Source: Nitrospirota bacterium (GTDB taxonomy: Bacteria > Nitrospirota > Nitrospiria > Nitrospirales > Nitrospiraceae). From it: a stretch of DNA of 36,980 nucleotides. The stretch lies in NCBI GenBank assembly GCA_028876065.1, contig JAGWTI010000029.1:1-36980 (forward strand), given 5' to 3'. The translations under genes were made by a program, and so were the position numbers. Of this stretch, positions 5,783 through 13,908 are shown piece by piece. How positions within the stretch are numbered: position 1 is the first letter of the stretch; the number at the start of each line of letters is the position of its first letter. The notes beneath the pieces are model-generated. The model saw only the letters and a list, made by a program, of their open reading frames with translations, did not search any database and was not told the DNA's origin.

Positions 5783-6859
5783 TTACCCTTGCAGAAAGTT
5801 CTTGAGGATGGCATCGCCCATTTCGACCGTGCCCACCAATGTGGTCCCTGGTCCTTGAATATCCTTTGTCCGATAGCCCTGCTCCAGCGTCTTCTGGATC
5901 GCGCGTTCGATCGCCTCCGCTTCCTTGTCCAGGCGGAGTTGGTACGACAGCAGCATGGCGGCGGAGGCGATCGTCGCGATGGGATTTGCCAGGTTCTTGC
6001 CCGCAATATCCGGCGCGCTGCCATGGATCGGCTCATACATCCCGGCTTTCGTGCCGATACTGGCCGAGGGCAACATGCCGATGGAGCCGGTCAGCATCGC
6101 CGCCTCGTCGCTCAAGATGTCCCCGAACAAGTTGGTGGTCACCAGCACATCGAACTGCCTGGGATTGCGGATCAACTGCATCGCGCAGTTGTCCACGTAC
6201 ATGTGGCTCAACTCGACATCCGGATAGTCCCGGTGCACATCGATCACCACCCGCCGCCACAGTTCTGAGGACTCCAGCACATTGGCCTTGTCCACGGACA
6301 TGACTTTCCGCCGTCGTTTCCTGGCCGCCTCGAAGGCCACCTTGGCAATGCGTTGGATTTCATGGGTCGTATAGACTTCCGTATTGACGCCCCGTTCTCC
6401 CTCCGCGGTTTTTTCGATCCCTTTCGGTTTCCCGAAATAGATCCCGCCGGTCAGCTCGCGCACGACCAACAGGTCGATCCCCTCGATGACCTCGCGTTTC
6501 AAGGTCGAGGCCTCGCTCAACATCGGGTAGAGCTTGGCGGGACGGAGGTTCGCAAACAGTCCCAACTGTTCGCGCAGCCCGAGCAGCGCCCGCTCCGGAC
6601 GGATCGTATAGTCCAGCCCTTCCCACTTGGGTCCGCCCACGGCGCCCAGCAACACCGCATCGCTCGACTTGGCCAGCGCCAGGGTGTCGTCGGGCAAGGG
6701 CACGCCAATCTTGTCGATCGCCGCGCCCCCCACGTCGGCCGGCACGAACGTCAACGTATGGCCGAACTTCTCCGCCGCCGCCCGAAGCAATTTCACCGCT
6801 TCGGGGACGATTTCCTTTCCCACGCCGTCGCCGGCCAAGACCGCAATCTGCGCTTTCAT
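5783..6859 (-). CDS. leuB: 3-isopropylmalate dehydrogenase
   Basis: Oxidises and decarboxylates 3-isopropylmalate with NAD+ to 2-ketoisocaproate, the third step of leucine synthesis. The 358-residue protein has the family start ([21 protein letters not shown]), AVGGPKWEG, the [11 protein letters not shown] loop typical of IPMDH, the Lys-containing [13 protein letters not shown], the metal-binding [14 protein letters not shown] and [14 protein letters not shown]. The start at 6859 follows AGGAGTGAAG. It lies 58 bases after leuA. leuC and leuD, needed for the step between, are not in this window. Confidence 0.97.
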
Positions 6860-6917: not shown

Positions 6918-8471
6918 CTATTCGTAAATCAAGCCGGCTTTCCGCTCCGGATCGAAATGCTTGGAGGCCCAGAACGCCAGCTTATTCAAGCCGTTGAGAT
7001 AGGCCCGGGCGGAAGCCACGATGATGTCGGTATCGGACCCGTGCCCGCTGGCCGTTTTGCCGTTCTCCTGCAATCGCACGGACACTTCGCCTTGCGAATC
7101 GGTTCCGCCGGTGATCGCCTCCACCGAATAGCCCAGCAGGCAACTCTTGGTTTGGGTCATCGCGGCAATGGTGCGATAGGCTGCGTCCACCGGCCCGTCC
7201 CCCGTGCCGGTCTGTTTCACCGGCTTCCCGTCGATCTCCAGCTCGACCGTCGCCGTGGGCACCTTGTTGGTGCCGCTCTCGACGTAGAGCGACTTGAGGA
7301 CGTATCGCTCCGGAATGCGGGCGATTTCCTCGGACACGATGGCCTGGAGATCTTCTTCGTACACTTCTTTCTTCTGGTCCGCCAGCCGCTTGAATCTCGC
7401 GAAGGCGTGATTGACCTCCTCGTCCGACAGCTTGTATCCCAACTCTTCCAGTTTCTGCCGGAAGGCATGCCGGCCCGACAACTTCCCCATGATGAGGTTG
7501 CTCTGAGTCAGCCCCACCGACTCGGGACGCATGATCTCATACGTGCTCTTCTCTTTCAGAAGACCGTCCTGGTGAATGCCGGAGGTATGGGCGAACGCGT
7601 TCGCGCCCACGATGGCCTTGTTCGGCTGCACCGCCATCCCCGTGATCTTGCTGACGAGACGGCTGGTCTTGATAATCTCCTCCGTGCGGATATTGGTGTC
7701 GGCCTGGTAGAAGTCCTTGCGGGTCCGCAACCCCATCGCAATTTCCTCCAGCGACGCATTGCCCGCCCGCTCGCCGATCCCATTGACGGTGCACTCCACC
7801 TGCCCCGCTCCTTCCAAAATAGCCGCCAGGGAGTTGGCCACGGCCAGCCCCAGGTCGTTGTGGCAATGCACCGAGATGACGGCCTGGCTGCTGTTCTTGA
7901 CCTTCTCGCGGATCCCACGGATCAGGCGGCCGAACTCCTGCGGCGTCGTATAGCCCACCGTATCGGGGATATTGACTGTACCGGCGCCGGCGGCGATGAC
8001 CGCTTCGATCACCTCGTTCAGATAGGTCGGGTCGGAACGGCTGGCATCCATGGGAGAGAACTCCACGTCCTGGACGTAGCCCCGTGCCCGCTGCACCATC
8101 TCCACGGCCCGCTTCAAGGCCTCGTCCCGGCTCATCCGGAACTGATGCTTCAAATGGATGTCCGAGGTCGAGAGGAACGTATGGATGCGCACCTTCGGAG
8201 CCCCCTTCAGCGCCTCCCAGGCCCGATCGATGTCTTCGGGTCTCGCCCGAGCCAGGCTGCAGACCGTAGGCCCCTCCACTTCTTGCGCGACTCGTCGGAC
8301 CGCCTCAAAGTCACCCGGCGAGCTATAGGCAAAGCCCGCTTCGATAATATCGACGCCCAGGCGGGCCAGTTGCTTCGCCACCATGAGCTTCTCTTCCAGG
8401 TTCATGCTCGCCCCTGGCGACTGCTCTCCGTCCCGCAAGGTGGTGTCAAAGATCCGAATCATGCGCGTCAT
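6918..8471 (-). CDS. leuA: 2-isopropylmalate synthase
   Basis: Condenses acetyl-CoA with 2-ketoisovalerate, the committed and leucine-inhibited step of leucine synthesis. The 517-residue length fits bacterial LeuA. The N-terminal HMGL-like barrel shows [13 protein letters not shown] near residue 8, [16 protein letters not shown] with metal-binding histidines and [13 protein letters not shown]. The C-terminal part (about 380-500) matches the LeuA allosteric domain, with [22 protein letters not shown]. The start ATG at 8471 is chosen because GGAGGAG lies nine bases upstream; the in-frame reading further upstream is the T-box leader. The leader predicts transcriptional control by uncharged tRNA-Leu. 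Confidence 0.97.
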
Positions 8472-8489
8472 GGTCTGGCCCTCCTCCAA

Positions 8490-8745
8490 TAAAAAAAGCC
8501 TTCTCCCTTGCTTCAGGGACGAAGGCTTCACGCGCTCCGTGGTACCACCCTGCTTCAGCGACGGAGTTTCCGGTGGAAACCCCGACACCCTTCATTGAAC
8601 CCGTTTCGTGGGTCAGGCGGAGCCCCTTACTCTCCGAACGATTTCACGGGCTCGGCTCCGAGGCGAGTTCGGCGGCCGACGGGCTGATTTGCACCACCCA
8701 CCAGCTCTCTCGGTCCGTCGGGACCGCCTACTACTCCTCTTCGAC
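8490..8745 (-). promoter_or_regulatory. T-box riboswitch, leucine (CUC specifier), upstream of leuA
   Basis: On the minus strand the leader shows all main T-box parts in order. A basal stem GAGG (8739-8736) pairs with CCTC (8663-8660). The specifier loop has AGTAGTA on the 5' side and GAACTCG on the 3' side, with the leucine codon CTC at 8667-8665. A distal stem I carries GAGAGAGCTGG and GGTGGTGCAAA. The T-box sequence GAAGCAGGGTGGTACCACGG (8556-8537) sits in an antiterminator built from CTCCGT (8566-8561) and ACGGAG (8540-8535). A terminator hairpin follows, then the leuA ribosome site. Uncharged tRNA-Leu(GAG) should favour read-through. It begins about ten bases after the pssA stop. Confidence 0.93.
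8493..8530 (-). terminator. Regulated intrinsic terminator of the leuA T-box leader
   Basis: On the minus strand AAGCCTTC (8528-8521) pairs with GAAGGCTT (8503-8496), with an inner TCCCT/AGGGA stem, and a run of T residues follows. It is the alternative structure to the antiterminator and ends transcription before leuA when tRNA-Leu is charged. Confidence 0.85.
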
Positions 8746-8754
8746 GCCGCTCGA

Positions 8755-9552
8755 CTACGACTCTTTCGACTCCAACGCCGGTTGCTCGGCCGCGCTTCGC
8801 TTGCCGAACGCCCTGGCCATCACGCTCCACGCTTTTTCAAGGGGCCCCAGCGCCGCATAGCCGGCAAAGACCAGGAACAGCATCAACTGCGGCCAGGCGA
8901 TCACGAGCATGATGCCCAGAATCGCCCACACCAGATAGTTGAAGTGATGGCCGGGCCTGAATTTGAGGTCCTTGAAACTCCGGTACTTGACCGTGCTGAC
9001 CATCAAGAACGCCAGCAGCAACGCCAGCACAAACACCAGCCGAGACTTGTAGTCCACGGCCAGACCGACGACGTAGTGATCGAAAATGATCAGCGTCGCG
9101 ACCACGCTGGCTGCCGCCGGAATCGGCAGGCCGGTAAAGTACTTGCTCTCGCTGGTGGACGCCATCACGTTGAACCGGGCCAACCGCAACGCGCCGCAGG
9201 CGACGAACGCGAACATGACCGCCGCGCCCAACATCCCATGAGCCTTCAGCCCCCACCCATAAATCAAGAGCCCCGGCGCCACGCCGAAGGCGACCAGATC
9301 GGCCAGCGAGTCATACTCCACCCCGAACTGGCTGGTGCTGTTCGTCCAACGCGCGGACTTCCCGTCCAGCATGTCGAAAATCAGCGCCACCAGGATGGCC
9401 ACCGCCGCCGCCAGATAGTGCTCGCCGAAGACCGCCAGGATCGCGAACAGACCGCTGAACAGATTCCCGGTGGTCAAGAGGTTGGGGATCAGATAAACGG
9501 CTCGTTTGCGCTTCGATTCTTTGGCCACCGGCTTGTAGTCCTTGTCTTTCAT
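8755..9552 (-). CDS. pssA: CDP-diacylglycerol-serine O-phosphatidyltransferase
   Basis: Makes phosphatidylserine from CDP-diacylglycerol and serine at the membrane. The 265-residue protein has several hydrophobic helices and the full CDP-alcohol phosphotransferase signature: DGKSAR, eight residues, then GVEYDSLAD, which holds the metal-binding aspartates. The N-terminal YLIPNLLTTGNLFSGLFAI is typical of the short PssA form. Its product is the substrate of the psd gene just upstream, so the two form a phosphatidylethanolamine module between ilvC and leuA. The stop codon lies directly before the leuA T-box leader. Confidence 0.94.
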   Translation of the reverse strand: MKDKDYKPVAKESKRKRAVYLIPNLLTTGNLFSGLFAILAVFGEHYLAAAVAILVALIFDMLDGKSARWTNSTSQFGVEYDSLADLVAFGVAPGLLIYGWGLKAHGMLGAAVMFAFVACGALRLARFNVMASTSESKYFTGLPIPAAASVVATLIIFDHYVVGLAVDYKSRLVFVLALLLAFLMVSTVKYRSFKDLKFRPGHHFNYLVWAILGIMLVIAWPQLMLFLVFAGYAALGPLEKAWSVMARAFGKRSAAEQPALESKES

Positions 9553-9577: not shown

Positions 9578-10225
9578 CTACGCCAACTCGGCGAGAATGG
9601 TCTCGCCCCCCTTTACGTGCATGCCGACACCCACCCGCACTTTGGTGCCGGCCGGCAGGAACATGTCCATCCGCGACCCGAACCGGATCAGACCGTATCG
9701 TTCGCCGCAAGCCACAGTCTCGCCGGGAGACACCCAGCACACGATCCTGCGGGCAATCAACCCCGCCACCTGCACGCAGAGCACTTTCGCCCCCTCCGCG
9801 GTCCGGATCATCAAGGCGTTCTGCTCGTTCCGCAAGGTCGCATCCGGACGGTTGGCCGGAACGAACTTCCCCGGCTGATAGGCGATGTCCTCGACAACCC
9901 CGTTGCACGGAATGCGATTCACATGCACGTTGAACACGTTCAAAAAGATGCTGATCCGGACCCCTTGATCCTTCAGGAATCGCGGCTCAAATTCCTCGGT
10001 GACCGCGATCACCTTGCCGTCTCCTGGTGCCACGACTGCGTGGGCCGACGGAGGCGCCACCCGCTTCGGATTGCGAAAGAACCAGGCGGTGAACAACGTC
10101 GCCAGACCCAACGCCAGCGCCGGGCCGGTCCATCCGAGTCCGGCCGCCAGGACGGCCGGGCCGCCGGCGCCCGCAACGAACGGGAGACCTTCTTTGACGA
10201 TCGGGATGCCGACGGCGCGGTCCAT
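9578..10225 (-). CDS. psd: Phosphatidylserine decarboxylase (short form)
   Basis: Converts phosphatidylserine to phosphatidylethanolamine. The 215-residue length matches the short, archaeal-type proenzyme family. Visible are two N-terminal hydrophobic stretches (about 17-50), FFRNPKR, VVAPGDGKVI, FLNVFNVHVNRIPCNG with the conserved histidine, and the self-cleavage site RFGSRMD, where Ser184 would become the pyruvoyl group. AGAGG lies seven bases before the ATG at 10225. pssA follows after 25 bases. Confidence 0.94.
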   Translation of the reverse strand: MDRAVGIPIVKEGLPFVAGAGGPAVLAAGLGWTGPALALGLATLFTAWFFRNPKRVAPPSAHAVVAPGDGKVIAVTEEFEPRFLKDQGVRISIFLNVFNVHVNRIPCNGVVEDIAYQPGKFVPANRPDATLRNEQNALMIRTAEGAKVLCVQVAGLIARRIVCWVSPGETVACGERYGLIRFGSRMDMFLPAGTKVRVGVGMHVKGGETILAELA

Positions 10226-10264: not shown

Positions 10265-11350
<1,086 letters not shown>

Positions 11351-11869
11351 TTATTCTTTGGCGACGCGCTTCGGTTGCATCGCGGCCGGACGAAGCGGTT
11401 CCCGCGCGATCGCCACGCGGCCGGTCCTGGCCAGTTCCTTGATGCCCAGCGGCTGCAACAAGTTGATGATCGCCTCGATCTTGTTGACGTCGCCGGTGAT
11501 CTCGATCGTGTAGGTCGTCGGCGTGGAGTCGATCACGCTGGCGCGGAAAATGTCCGCGATCCGCAGGGCCTCGGCCCGGTCCTCCGGCTTGGTGTGGACC
11601 TTGATCAGCGCGGTTTCGCGCTCGACGAACTCGCTCTCGTTGAGGTCCACGACCTTGATCACGTCGATCAGCTTGTTGAGCTGTTTGACGATCTGCTCGA
11701 TGATCCGATCGTCGCCCGTGGTCACGATCGTCATCATGGACATGGAGGGGTCCAGCGTGGGCGCCACCGAGAGACTCTCGATGTTGAAGCCTCGGCCGCT
11801 GAAGAGACCCGCCACCCGAGACAGGACCCCGAACTTGTTTTCGACGATGACGGAAATGATGTGGTCCAT
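11351..11869 (-). CDS. ilvH: Acetolactate synthase small (regulatory) subunit
   Basis: The regulatory partner of IlvB, which raises activity and gives valine feedback control. The 172-residue protein starts HIISVIVENKFGVLSRVAGL and continues GRGFNIESLSV, the N-terminal ACT domain; the C-terminal half (about 80-160) is the second conserved domain, with RETALIKVH and YTIEITGDVNKIEAIINLL. The start is ATG 11869, with only a weak ribosome binding site. It is separated from ilvB by a 94-base spacer holding short inverted repeats and lies 72 bases before ilvC. Confidence 0.96.
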   Translation of the reverse strand: MDHIISVIVENKFGVLSRVAGLFSGRGFNIESLSVAPTLDPSMSMMTIVTTGDDRIIEQIVKQLNKLIDVIKVVDLNESEFVERETALIKVHTKPEDRAEALRIADIFRASVIDSTPTTYTIEITGDVNKIEAIINLLQPLGIKELARTGRVAIAREPLRPAAMQPKRVAKE

Positions 11870-11963: not shown

Positions 11964-13739
11964 CTACGCGGTCAGCACGGTGTCCTTGTCTTCGCCCGCC
12001 ACTTTCGAGCCGGCCGGCTGCTTTTTCTTCAATTCCGGCGGATCGGTCAGGATCATTTCGTGGTTGCAGCCCCCGGCCGGAATCATCGGGTAGCAATTTT
12101 CATATTGATACACGGGCACATCGACCAGGACCGGCTTGTCCACGGCGATGGCCTCGCGGATCACGTCGTCCACCTCGGACACCTTGCTTGCGCGCAGCCC
12201 CACGGCCCCGTAGGCCTCCGCCAACTTGATGAAATCGGGAGTCGCGTCCAGGTAGCTCGAGGCATAGCGGCCTTCATAGAACAAATCCTGCCATTGGCGG
12301 ACCATCCCATGGAACCGGTTGTTGACGATGAACACCTTGACCGGCAACTTGCTCACCACCGCCGTGGCCAGTTCCTGAGTGTTCATCTGGAAGCTGCCGT
12401 CGCCCGCGATGCACAGCACCAGCTTGTCCGGAAAGGCCGCCTGTGCGCCCATGGCGGCCGGGAAGCCGAACCCCATCGTGCCCAACCCACCGGAGGTCAA
12501 CCACCGATTCGGCTTGGCCAGTTTGAAATACTGGGCCGACCACATCTGATGCTGGCCGACGTCGGTCGCCACGATCGGGTCCCGGTCCTTCGTGAGCTCG
12601 AAGACCCGCTTGATCAGGTGCTGGGGCTTGATGGCTCCGTTCGGGTCCTGTTCGTACGCCAACGGATGGGACCGCTGCCACTCGCGGATCTGCTCCAGCC
12701 AGGGCTTTCGCAGGTCCTTTTGATCCCCGTTGACCGTGGCCCGAAGAATCTGGGTCAACTCCCGCAACACCGATTTACAGTCTCCCACGATGGGGATGTC
12801 CACGTTCACATTTTTGCGGATGGACGTCGGATCGATATCGATATGAATGACCTTGGCGTGCGGACAGAACTCCGACACTTTGCCGGTCACGCGGTCGTCG
12901 AACCGAGCGCCGACCGCGATCACGAGGTCCGAGTGGTGCATCGCCATGTTGGCCCAGTAGGTGCCGTGCATGCCCAACATGCCCATCGACAGCGGATGTT
13001 CTCCCGGAAACGCCCCCAACGCCATGAGGGTCATGTCCACGGGGATATGGGTCAGCTCGGCCAGCTCCAGCAATTCCTCCGACGCGCCGGAGAAAATGAC
13101 CCCGCCGCCGACGTACAAAATCGGCTTCCGTGCCTTCATAATGGCTTCGGCCGCCTGCTTGATCTGCCATTTATTGCCGTCGTAGGTCGGGTTATAGCCC
13201 CGGATCGAGACGGACCCAGGGTACTTGAAGTCCGCCTTGTTCATGGACACGTCTTTCGGGATATCCACGAGCACGGGGCCAGGCCGGCCGGTGGTGGCCA
13301 CGTAAAAGGCTTCCTTGATGGTCACGGCCAGATCGTTCACGTCCTTCACGAGAAAATTGTATTTGGTGCAAGGACGGCTCAAACCGATGTTGTCCGCCTC
13401 CTGGAACGCATCGTTGCCGATCAAACTGGTCGGCACCTGTCCGGAGAAACAGACCAAGGGCACCGAATCCATGTAGGCGTCGGCCAACGCCGTGATCACG
13501 TTGGTCATGCCCGGTCCCGAGGTCACCAGGCACACACCGGCCTTGCCCGTTGCCTTGGCGTAGCCTTCAGCCATGTGGCCGGCCCCCTGCTCATGGCGGG
13601 TCAGGACCACGTTGACATCCTTCTGCTGGTGCAGAATATCGAAGATTTTCAGCACCACCCCGCCCGGCAGAGCAAAGAGGGTCTTGACCCCTTCGCGTTT
13701 GAGACACTCCAGGAATATCTCTGCGCCTGTCAACTTCAT
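11964..13739 (-). CDS. ilvB: Acetolactate synthase large (catalytic) subunit
   Basis: Thiamine-diphosphate enzyme making acetolactate or acetohydroxybutyrate, the first shared step of branched-chain synthesis. The 591-residue length is normal. The N-terminal domain has LFALPGGVVLKIFD, the catalytic glutamate in LTRHEQGAGHMAEGYAK and SGPGMTN. The C-terminal domain has the cofactor motif GDGSFQMNTQELATA followed by VFIVNN. A GAGGGGGT ribosome site precedes ATG 13739. It is the first gene of the block, with a sigma-70-like promoter about 140 bases upstream. Confidence 0.97.
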   Translation of the reverse strand: MKLTGAEIFLECLKREGVKTLFALPGGVVLKIFDILHQQKDVNVVLTRHEQGAGHMAEGYAKATGKAGVCLVTSGPGMTNVITALADAYMDSVPLVCFSGQVPTSLIGNDAFQEADNIGLSRPCTKYNFLVKDVNDLAVTIKEAFYVATTGRPGPVLVDIPKDVSMNKADFKYPGSVSIRGYNPTYDGNKWQIKQAAEAIMKARKPILYVGGGVIFSGASEELLELAELTHIPVDMTLMALGAFPGEHPLSMGMLGMHGTYWANMAMHHSDLVIAVGARFDDRVTGKVSEFCPHAKVIHIDIDPTSIRKNVNVDIPIVGDCKSVLRELTQILRATVNGDQKDLRKPWLEQIREWQRSHPLAYEQDPNGAIKPQHLIKRVFELTKDRDPIVATDVGQHQMWSAQYFKLAKPNRWLTSGGLGTMGFGFPAAMGAQAAFPDKLVLCIAGDGSFQMNTQELATAVVSKLPVKVFIVNNRFHGMVRQWQDLFYEGRYASSYLDATPDFIKLAEAYGAVGLRASKVSEVDDVIREAIAVDKPVLVDVPVYQYENCYPMIPAGGCNHEMILTDPPELKKKQPAGSKVAGEDKDTVLTA

Positions 13740-13879: not shown

Positions 13880-13908
13880 ATGCTATCACTGGGTGCCCTT
13901 TAAGTCAA
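13880..13908 (-). promoter_or_regulatory. Sigma-70-type promoter for the ilvB operon
   Basis: On the minus strand TTGACT (13908-13903) and TAGCAT (13885-13880) are 17 bases apart. Transcription would begin near 13872, giving a leader of about 130 bases before ilvB. Apart from this promoter and the leader hairpin, nothing clear is seen in 13740-14055. Confidence 0.6.

Follow-up and report, generated by a model that had tools for sequence, protein, structure and literature searches.

The window, by which we mean the whole stretch of 36,980 nucleotides of Nitrospirota DNA analysed here, carries on its minus strand a run of amino acid and phospholipid genes in the order ilvB–ilvH–ilvC–psd–pssA–leuA–leuB (Table 1). 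A sequence-only reading had put forward an ilv–psd–pssA–leu gene run at this place, and NCBIfam models confirm it, naming asd above the cut-off as well; between leuB and asd lies a gene for an NHL-repeat-like protein (weak matches). The intergenic gaps from ilvB to pssA are short. The genome, which had been taken for probably Nitrospira-type, indeed belongs to the Nitrospiraceae, a family with nitrite-oxidising and comammox bacteria, and a contig of the same genus matches Nitrospiraceae bacterium F1-60-MAGs110 without a difference over 1612 bases. Elsewhere in the window are an RNase P RNA of class A (14684–14293, minus strand) and a tRNA-Met (CAT) gene (30169–30093, minus strand).

A leucine T-box leader occupies the junction between pssA and leuA. 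The pssA stop codon ends at position 8755, and the leader begins 1 nt past it; this internal placement after pssA had been recognised from the letters, and the limits then proposed, 8490–8745, locate the element and cut off its first 8 nt. The individual parts named at the time (a CTC specifier, the T-box sequence, an antiterminator and a T-run terminator) were each found, at 8670–8491 on the minus strand.

Table 1. Genes and leader features at the leucine locus of the window
Feature	Position	Strand	Basis
ilvB, acetolactate synthase large subunit, presumed operon start	11964..13739	-	TIGR00118 over cut-off
ilvH/ilvN, acetolactate synthase small subunit	11351..11869	-	NF008864 over cut-off
ilvC, ketol-acid reductoisomerase	10265..11278	-	NF004017 over cut-off
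psd, phosphatidylserine decarboxylase family	9578..10225	-	NF003678 over cut-off
pssA, CDP-diacylglycerol--serine O-phosphatidyltransferase	8755..9552	-	TIGR00473 over cut-off
Leucine T-box leader	8512..8753	-	cmscan RF00230 match and covariation
Stem I AG bulge (GAGAGAG)	8705..8711	-	sequence
Stem I distal loop GGTGGTG	8692..8698	-	sequence
Specifier codon CTC (Leu), after invariant GAA	8665..8667	-	sequence; GAACTC at 8670-8665
T-box sequence AGGGTGGTACCACG, UGGU bulge for tRNA acceptor end	8538..8551	-	sequence
CTTCGTCCCT, antiterminator 3' strand, common to terminator	8515..8524	-	sequence
Intrinsic terminator with T-run	8491..8527	-	sequence and folding
leuA, 2-isopropylmalate synthase, first gene past the switch, ATG at 8471	6918..8471	-	NCBIfam NF002086/TIGR00973 over cut-off
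leuB, 3-isopropylmalate dehydrogenase	5783..6859	-	TIGR00169 over cut-off

The minus-strand search with the Rfam T-box model that the sequence-only reading had suggested gives a full-length match: positions 1–219 of RF00230 align end to end with window positions 8753–8512 at 78.5 bits (E 1.8e-17; local covariance-model search). Against the whole 3.4 Mb genome the match has an E value of 3.2e-17, and no second T-box appears there when the limit is relaxed to E 10. Rfam sets the curated gathering score for RF00230 at 93 bits, and because 78.5 bits falls under it, a default gathering-score Rfam scan of the window reports RNase P and one tRNA, and no T-box. By Rfam's own rule, then, the element fails strict membership; every structural feature tested is present. 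Specifier CUC, UGGU bulge, antiterminator and T-run terminator are in place, and the T-box is structurally intact. Across our alignment A1 the AG bulge is conserved except in four rows from another Nitrospirota family (f9) and one Nitrospiraceae row (L087); the distal loop is conserved throughout apart from the four f9 rows, and AGGGTGGTACCACG is invariant save for the A of ACG, which is A or G.

To examine covariation we aligned 68 distinct homologues with MAFFT and imposed the structure given by the Rfam match, with shuffles and slid structures as controls. Standard pairs fill 92.0% of pair cells, versus 82.2% in shuffles and 34–47% in the slid versions. Changes on both sides occur in 30 of the 44 pairs, and double-change cells number 328; shuffling yields 94 such cells and sliding no more than 106. 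Kinship among the sequences inflates the shuffle control, so the comparison with slid structures is the more reliable. The distal helix of Stem I is paired in 98.2% of cells, with all six of its pairs co-varying, and the antiterminator helices (AGGG/CCCT and ACGGA/TTCGT) are paired in 100%. Hardly any variation, if any, occurs in the core, in the antiterminator strand or in the GAACT at the specifier.

These features make the claim of a complete leucine T-box a sound one, and the specifier and the tRNA complement bear it out. Wherever the specifier could be located in a homologue it is nearly always CTC, with CTG in two genera, a change that preserves leucine; readings of it as ACU or UCG are ruled out by its fixed position after GAA. 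A gene for tRNA-Leu(GAG) is present in the genome, and its GGCACCA end gives a discriminator A (A73) that matches the UGGU bulge. To our knowledge discriminator A is common to all tRNA-Leu, so that this match is a weak test of specificity. Folding of positions 8489–8560 gives a minimum free energy of −27.9 kcal/mol for the terminator region; the platform comes to −26.1 kcal/mol with the terminator versus −7.6 for the bare antiterminator. In these folds the two structures are mutually exclusive by way of their common strand, CTTCGTCCCT. A partial transcript that ends at the terminator loop adopts the antiterminator unaided, and the full platform favours the terminator.

The element is a regular feature of its family. 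Of 395 evenly sampled Nitrospirota genomes, 125 match RF00230 at E up to 0.001, 58 of them above the gathering score and 67 below it. All four genomes of the window's own genus carry the T-box (one passes the gathering score), as do 108 of the 110 sampled Nitrospiraceae (f1); records named Nitrospira lenta also carry it. There is one match per f1 genome, except for one assembly in which the match is split at contig ends. We do not count the two match-free f1 genomes as losses: in one, leuA is truncated by the start of a contig, and the other yielded no leuA proper. Beyond the family, 17 genomes of five other Nitrospirota families (f6, f9, f15, f16 and f19) have the T-box. It sits at the pssA/leuA junction in nearly all loci for which both neighbours were retrieved, usually behind ilvB–ilvH–ilvC–psd. 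T-boxes of Chloroflexota and Bacillota were considered as close relatives and rejected, the psd–pssA–leuA context occurring in 0 of 30. Some loci vary in form. In f9 (L095–L098) Stem I is very short and has neither AG bulge nor distal loop, the CTC specifier and terminator being kept; and in one f16 genome (L102, G025) the T-box and leuA lie about 0.8 kb apart, with a possible short coding sequence in between.

All this makes it very probable that the element in the window is a leucine-specific, transcription-attenuating T-box riboswitch with a long Stem I, lying inside an ilvBHC–psd–pssA–leuA–leuB transcript. For tRNA binding, the response to charging, termination and co-transcription we infer the following course. 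Polymerase arriving from upstream would transcribe the leader directly past pssA, and the CUC specifier in Stem I would pair with the tRNA-Leu(GAG) anticodon. Were this tRNA uncharged, its free ACCA end would pair with the UGGU bulge and stabilise the antiterminator (AGGG/CCCU and ACGGAG/CUUCGU); while this held, leuA and leuB would be transcribed. If it were charged, the terminator would form and transcription would end ahead of leuA, with ilvBHC, psd and pssA still expressed. Because the T-box sits inside the operon, leucine demand would thus gate leuA–leuB only, and the genes for valine and isoleucine precursors and for phosphatidylethanolamine would keep running.

A scan for the sigma-70 consensus finds a promoter-like site upstream of ilvB, at 13908–13880, and none from 8753 to about 11856, hence none between pssA and the T-box; promoters of this phylum may not fit that consensus. 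Such sites are no commoner than in shuffles, for which reason we treat the operon as presumptive. Since no promoter-like site separates pssA from the T-box, it is a reasonable inference that the T-box uncouples leuA from the ilv, psd and pssA genes upstream. The competing view, which we consider unlikely, is that the T-box is genuine and that leuA–leuB have a promoter of their own, just upstream or within pssA, the T-box then being a plain 5' leader rather than a valve within an operon. The four f9 T-boxes lend it something, belonging to a different family in the same class and having a TTGACA...CATAAT/CATAGT-like promoter immediately upstream; at one of these loci (L097) pssA was not found near leuA. 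Sigma-70 scans may also misdescribe the promoters of this phylum, leaving room for one inside pssA. Against it stand the empty stretch from 8753 to about 11856 and the close packing of the junction in the family, where, at 24 of the 37 Nitrospiraceae loci, no more than 8 nt separate the pssA stop from the estimated 5' end of the T-box. The other 13 have an insert of about 10–160 nt between pssA and the T-box, in some cases resembling a dispersed repeat, and a separate promoter could lie in these inserts.

Two further accounts concern the nature of the element itself. It might be a decaying relic that has lost its response to tRNA, as the score below the gathering cut-off and the want of a detectable T-box in the sister family would allow; but the specifier, the GGTGGTACC core and the antiterminator are near-invariant while the helices co-vary across the family, and we regard decay as very improbable. 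It is hardly credible, too, that the leader is a leader-peptide attenuator, or some other cis element that merely resembles a T-box. The sister family does appear to use leader-peptide attenuation at this junction, but in the window Stem I, complete with specifier, distal loop and AG bulge, takes up the space past pssA, and the covariance match runs from end to end.

The sister family, f2, of the same order, has no T-box match in the 395-genome survey, and an Rfam scan of 12 of its loci for T-boxes and known leader families gave no match at E up to 1. Its leuA is 75–79% identical to that of the window at most full-length loci, and a quick, midpoint-rooted LeuA tree joins f1 and f2 (SH-aLRT 99) with the T-box-bearing f6, f9 and f19 outside. 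Of 31 f2 loci, 13 (g20, g21, g23 and g27) have a short pssA–leuA gap with nothing recognisable in it. The other 18 have a terminator and antiterminator remnants at the junction, preceded in 16 by a short, mostly leucine-rich ORF in the position that leader-peptide attenuation calls for; the loci with ORF, terminator and antiterminator in the place of the T-box are L236–L239, L265–L271, L234, L235, L258, L259 and L262. In 11 of them (g16 and g17) an ORF of 29–35 codons starts 4–6 nt past the pssA stop, reads mostly MDQWQGKGR-TLLLGD--LTLAGLL, and is followed in most by CCGAAACAGGT and a GCCTTCACC/GGTGAAGGC terminator with a T-run. In five (g19) the ORF has 28–30 codons, with endings such as QCLFLLGKV, and stops about 9–10 nt before a GATCGGG that can pair with the CCCGATC inside AGCCTTCGTCCCGATCGGG...GAAGGCTTTTTT. 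At L240 and L254, AGCCTTCGTCCCC and the terminator are kept and the ORF is doubtful; we rejected both as leader-peptide attenuators, the terminator relic being clear and the ORF and antiterminator unconvincing.

At the other 16 junctions, ORF, terminator and antiterminator together probably make up leader-peptide attenuators that contain relics of a T-box platform. From 32 Nitrospiraceae T-box platforms, each taken from the GAA-core to the T-run, we built a model; it matches the junction in all 18 f2 device loci (E at most 0.001 in 16), and among 37 loci scored device-free its best match has E 0.009 and lies away from the junction. Genome-wide, the leuA junction ranks top in G139, G379, G135 and G083 and second in G127; in the device-free genome G252 no platform match falls below E 0.2. 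The platform score is in part that of a generic terminator, so that the telling figure is the lead over other terminators, about 6 to 9 bits for the four genomes where the junction ranks top. As for the ORFs, a leucine cluster (LLL, LL.L or L.LL) occurs in 14 of 16 tested, these being from related and not independent genomes. The total leucine excess over shuffled ORFs reaches P at most 0.036 in 10 of 11 g16/g17 ORFs and in one of five from g19, and the rare leucine codons CTA, TTA and CTT are over-used relative to neighbouring genes. A codon-position test on eight g16/g17 ORFs gives a pN/pS of 0.60, with differences spread over positions; it weakly supports coding, and being weak it is not a ratio from which alone we would claim it. 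Folding with an assumed ribosome footprint, at the g16/g17 and g19 loci examined, leaves the terminator when the ribosome is at the stop codon, and the antiterminator competing with the terminator when it is stalled at the leucine codons. These tests are consistent with one another rather than independent proofs, since we picked the regions with the sequences already in view and the genomes share ancestry.

Retention of the platform suggests an in-place conversion, and on balance we favour such a history: an ancestral leuA T-box in f2 would have become a leucine leader-peptide attenuator by losing its sensing half and keeping the terminator and part of the antiterminator, the other f2 genera having lost the whole device. 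The half lost would be the part that binds tRNA (Stem I and the UGGU bulge), and an ORF with leucine codons would have taken over the sensing. If this is true, a swap of sensor from T-box to ribosome can be seen at one syntenic site, where the states before and after and the inherited platform are all preserved. The family offers a test case for the exchange of an RNA sensor with unchanged output, at one conserved junction and with outgroups that keep the T-box.

Leucine T-boxes outside the Firmicutes are not new in kind. A typical T-box lies upstream of leuA in Geobacter sulfurreducens and Pelobacter carbinolicus (PMC2494555, 2008), and the window's element, likewise a leuA T-box in a non-Firmicute phylum, adds to that known kind. 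It differs in its phylum, in being near-universal in its family and in having its pssA–leuA placement shown. The leuA locus of Geobacter presumably has the same gene order as the window. In Bacillus subtilis a T-box heads the entire ilv–leu operon, whereas the switch in the window has ilvBHC–psd–pssA upstream and only leuA–leuB and what follows downstream. The B. subtilis element, as described in PMC5794164, responds to tRNA-Leu and serves branched-chain amino acid genes. According to the same paper (Kaiser et al. 2018), Staphylococcus aureus has at ilvD, in place of the T-box found in B. subtilis, a leucine-rich attenuator peptide; the 5'UTR there is loosely T-box-like and without the Stem I motifs. 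This attenuator is comparable to the f2 state, in a different phylum, and the accessible part of PMC5794164 reports no in-place conversion with a retained terminator. Sensing systems have been exchanged at the same gene before, including leader peptides that replace T-boxes in Firmicutes (PMC2965389, Genome Biol. 2010); unlike the f2 case, no retained expression platform is traced between both states in the accessible part of that article. In the literature that we searched, no publication describes a Nitrospirota T-box. What seems new is a family-wide T-box in Nitrospirota, together with the apparent in-place conversion with retained platform. Leucine T-boxes are extended to Nitrospiraceae as a near-universal feature, of which the gathering cut-off hides about half (67 of the 125 matched genomes).

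Two observations lie to the side. In family f25, the 230 nt before leuA at L277 hold no T-box; they contain a strong terminator, AAAAGCCACGGAAAAACCCCGTGGCTTTTTTTT, with a possible competing pairing upstream, and this leader may be yet another leuA attenuator. Many relatives of the window have, just past the T-box terminator, a copy of a dispersed element of about 116 bp, or a similar sequence. The element has the ends TGCTGAAA...TTTGAGCA, and the copy at L030 is G058:C1:979397-979512; sequences similar to it lie between the T-run and leuA in L012, L015, L019, L024, L078 and others. None was found in the two f2 genomes searched. G079 has at least 40 copies, G058 has 25 and the window's genome three.
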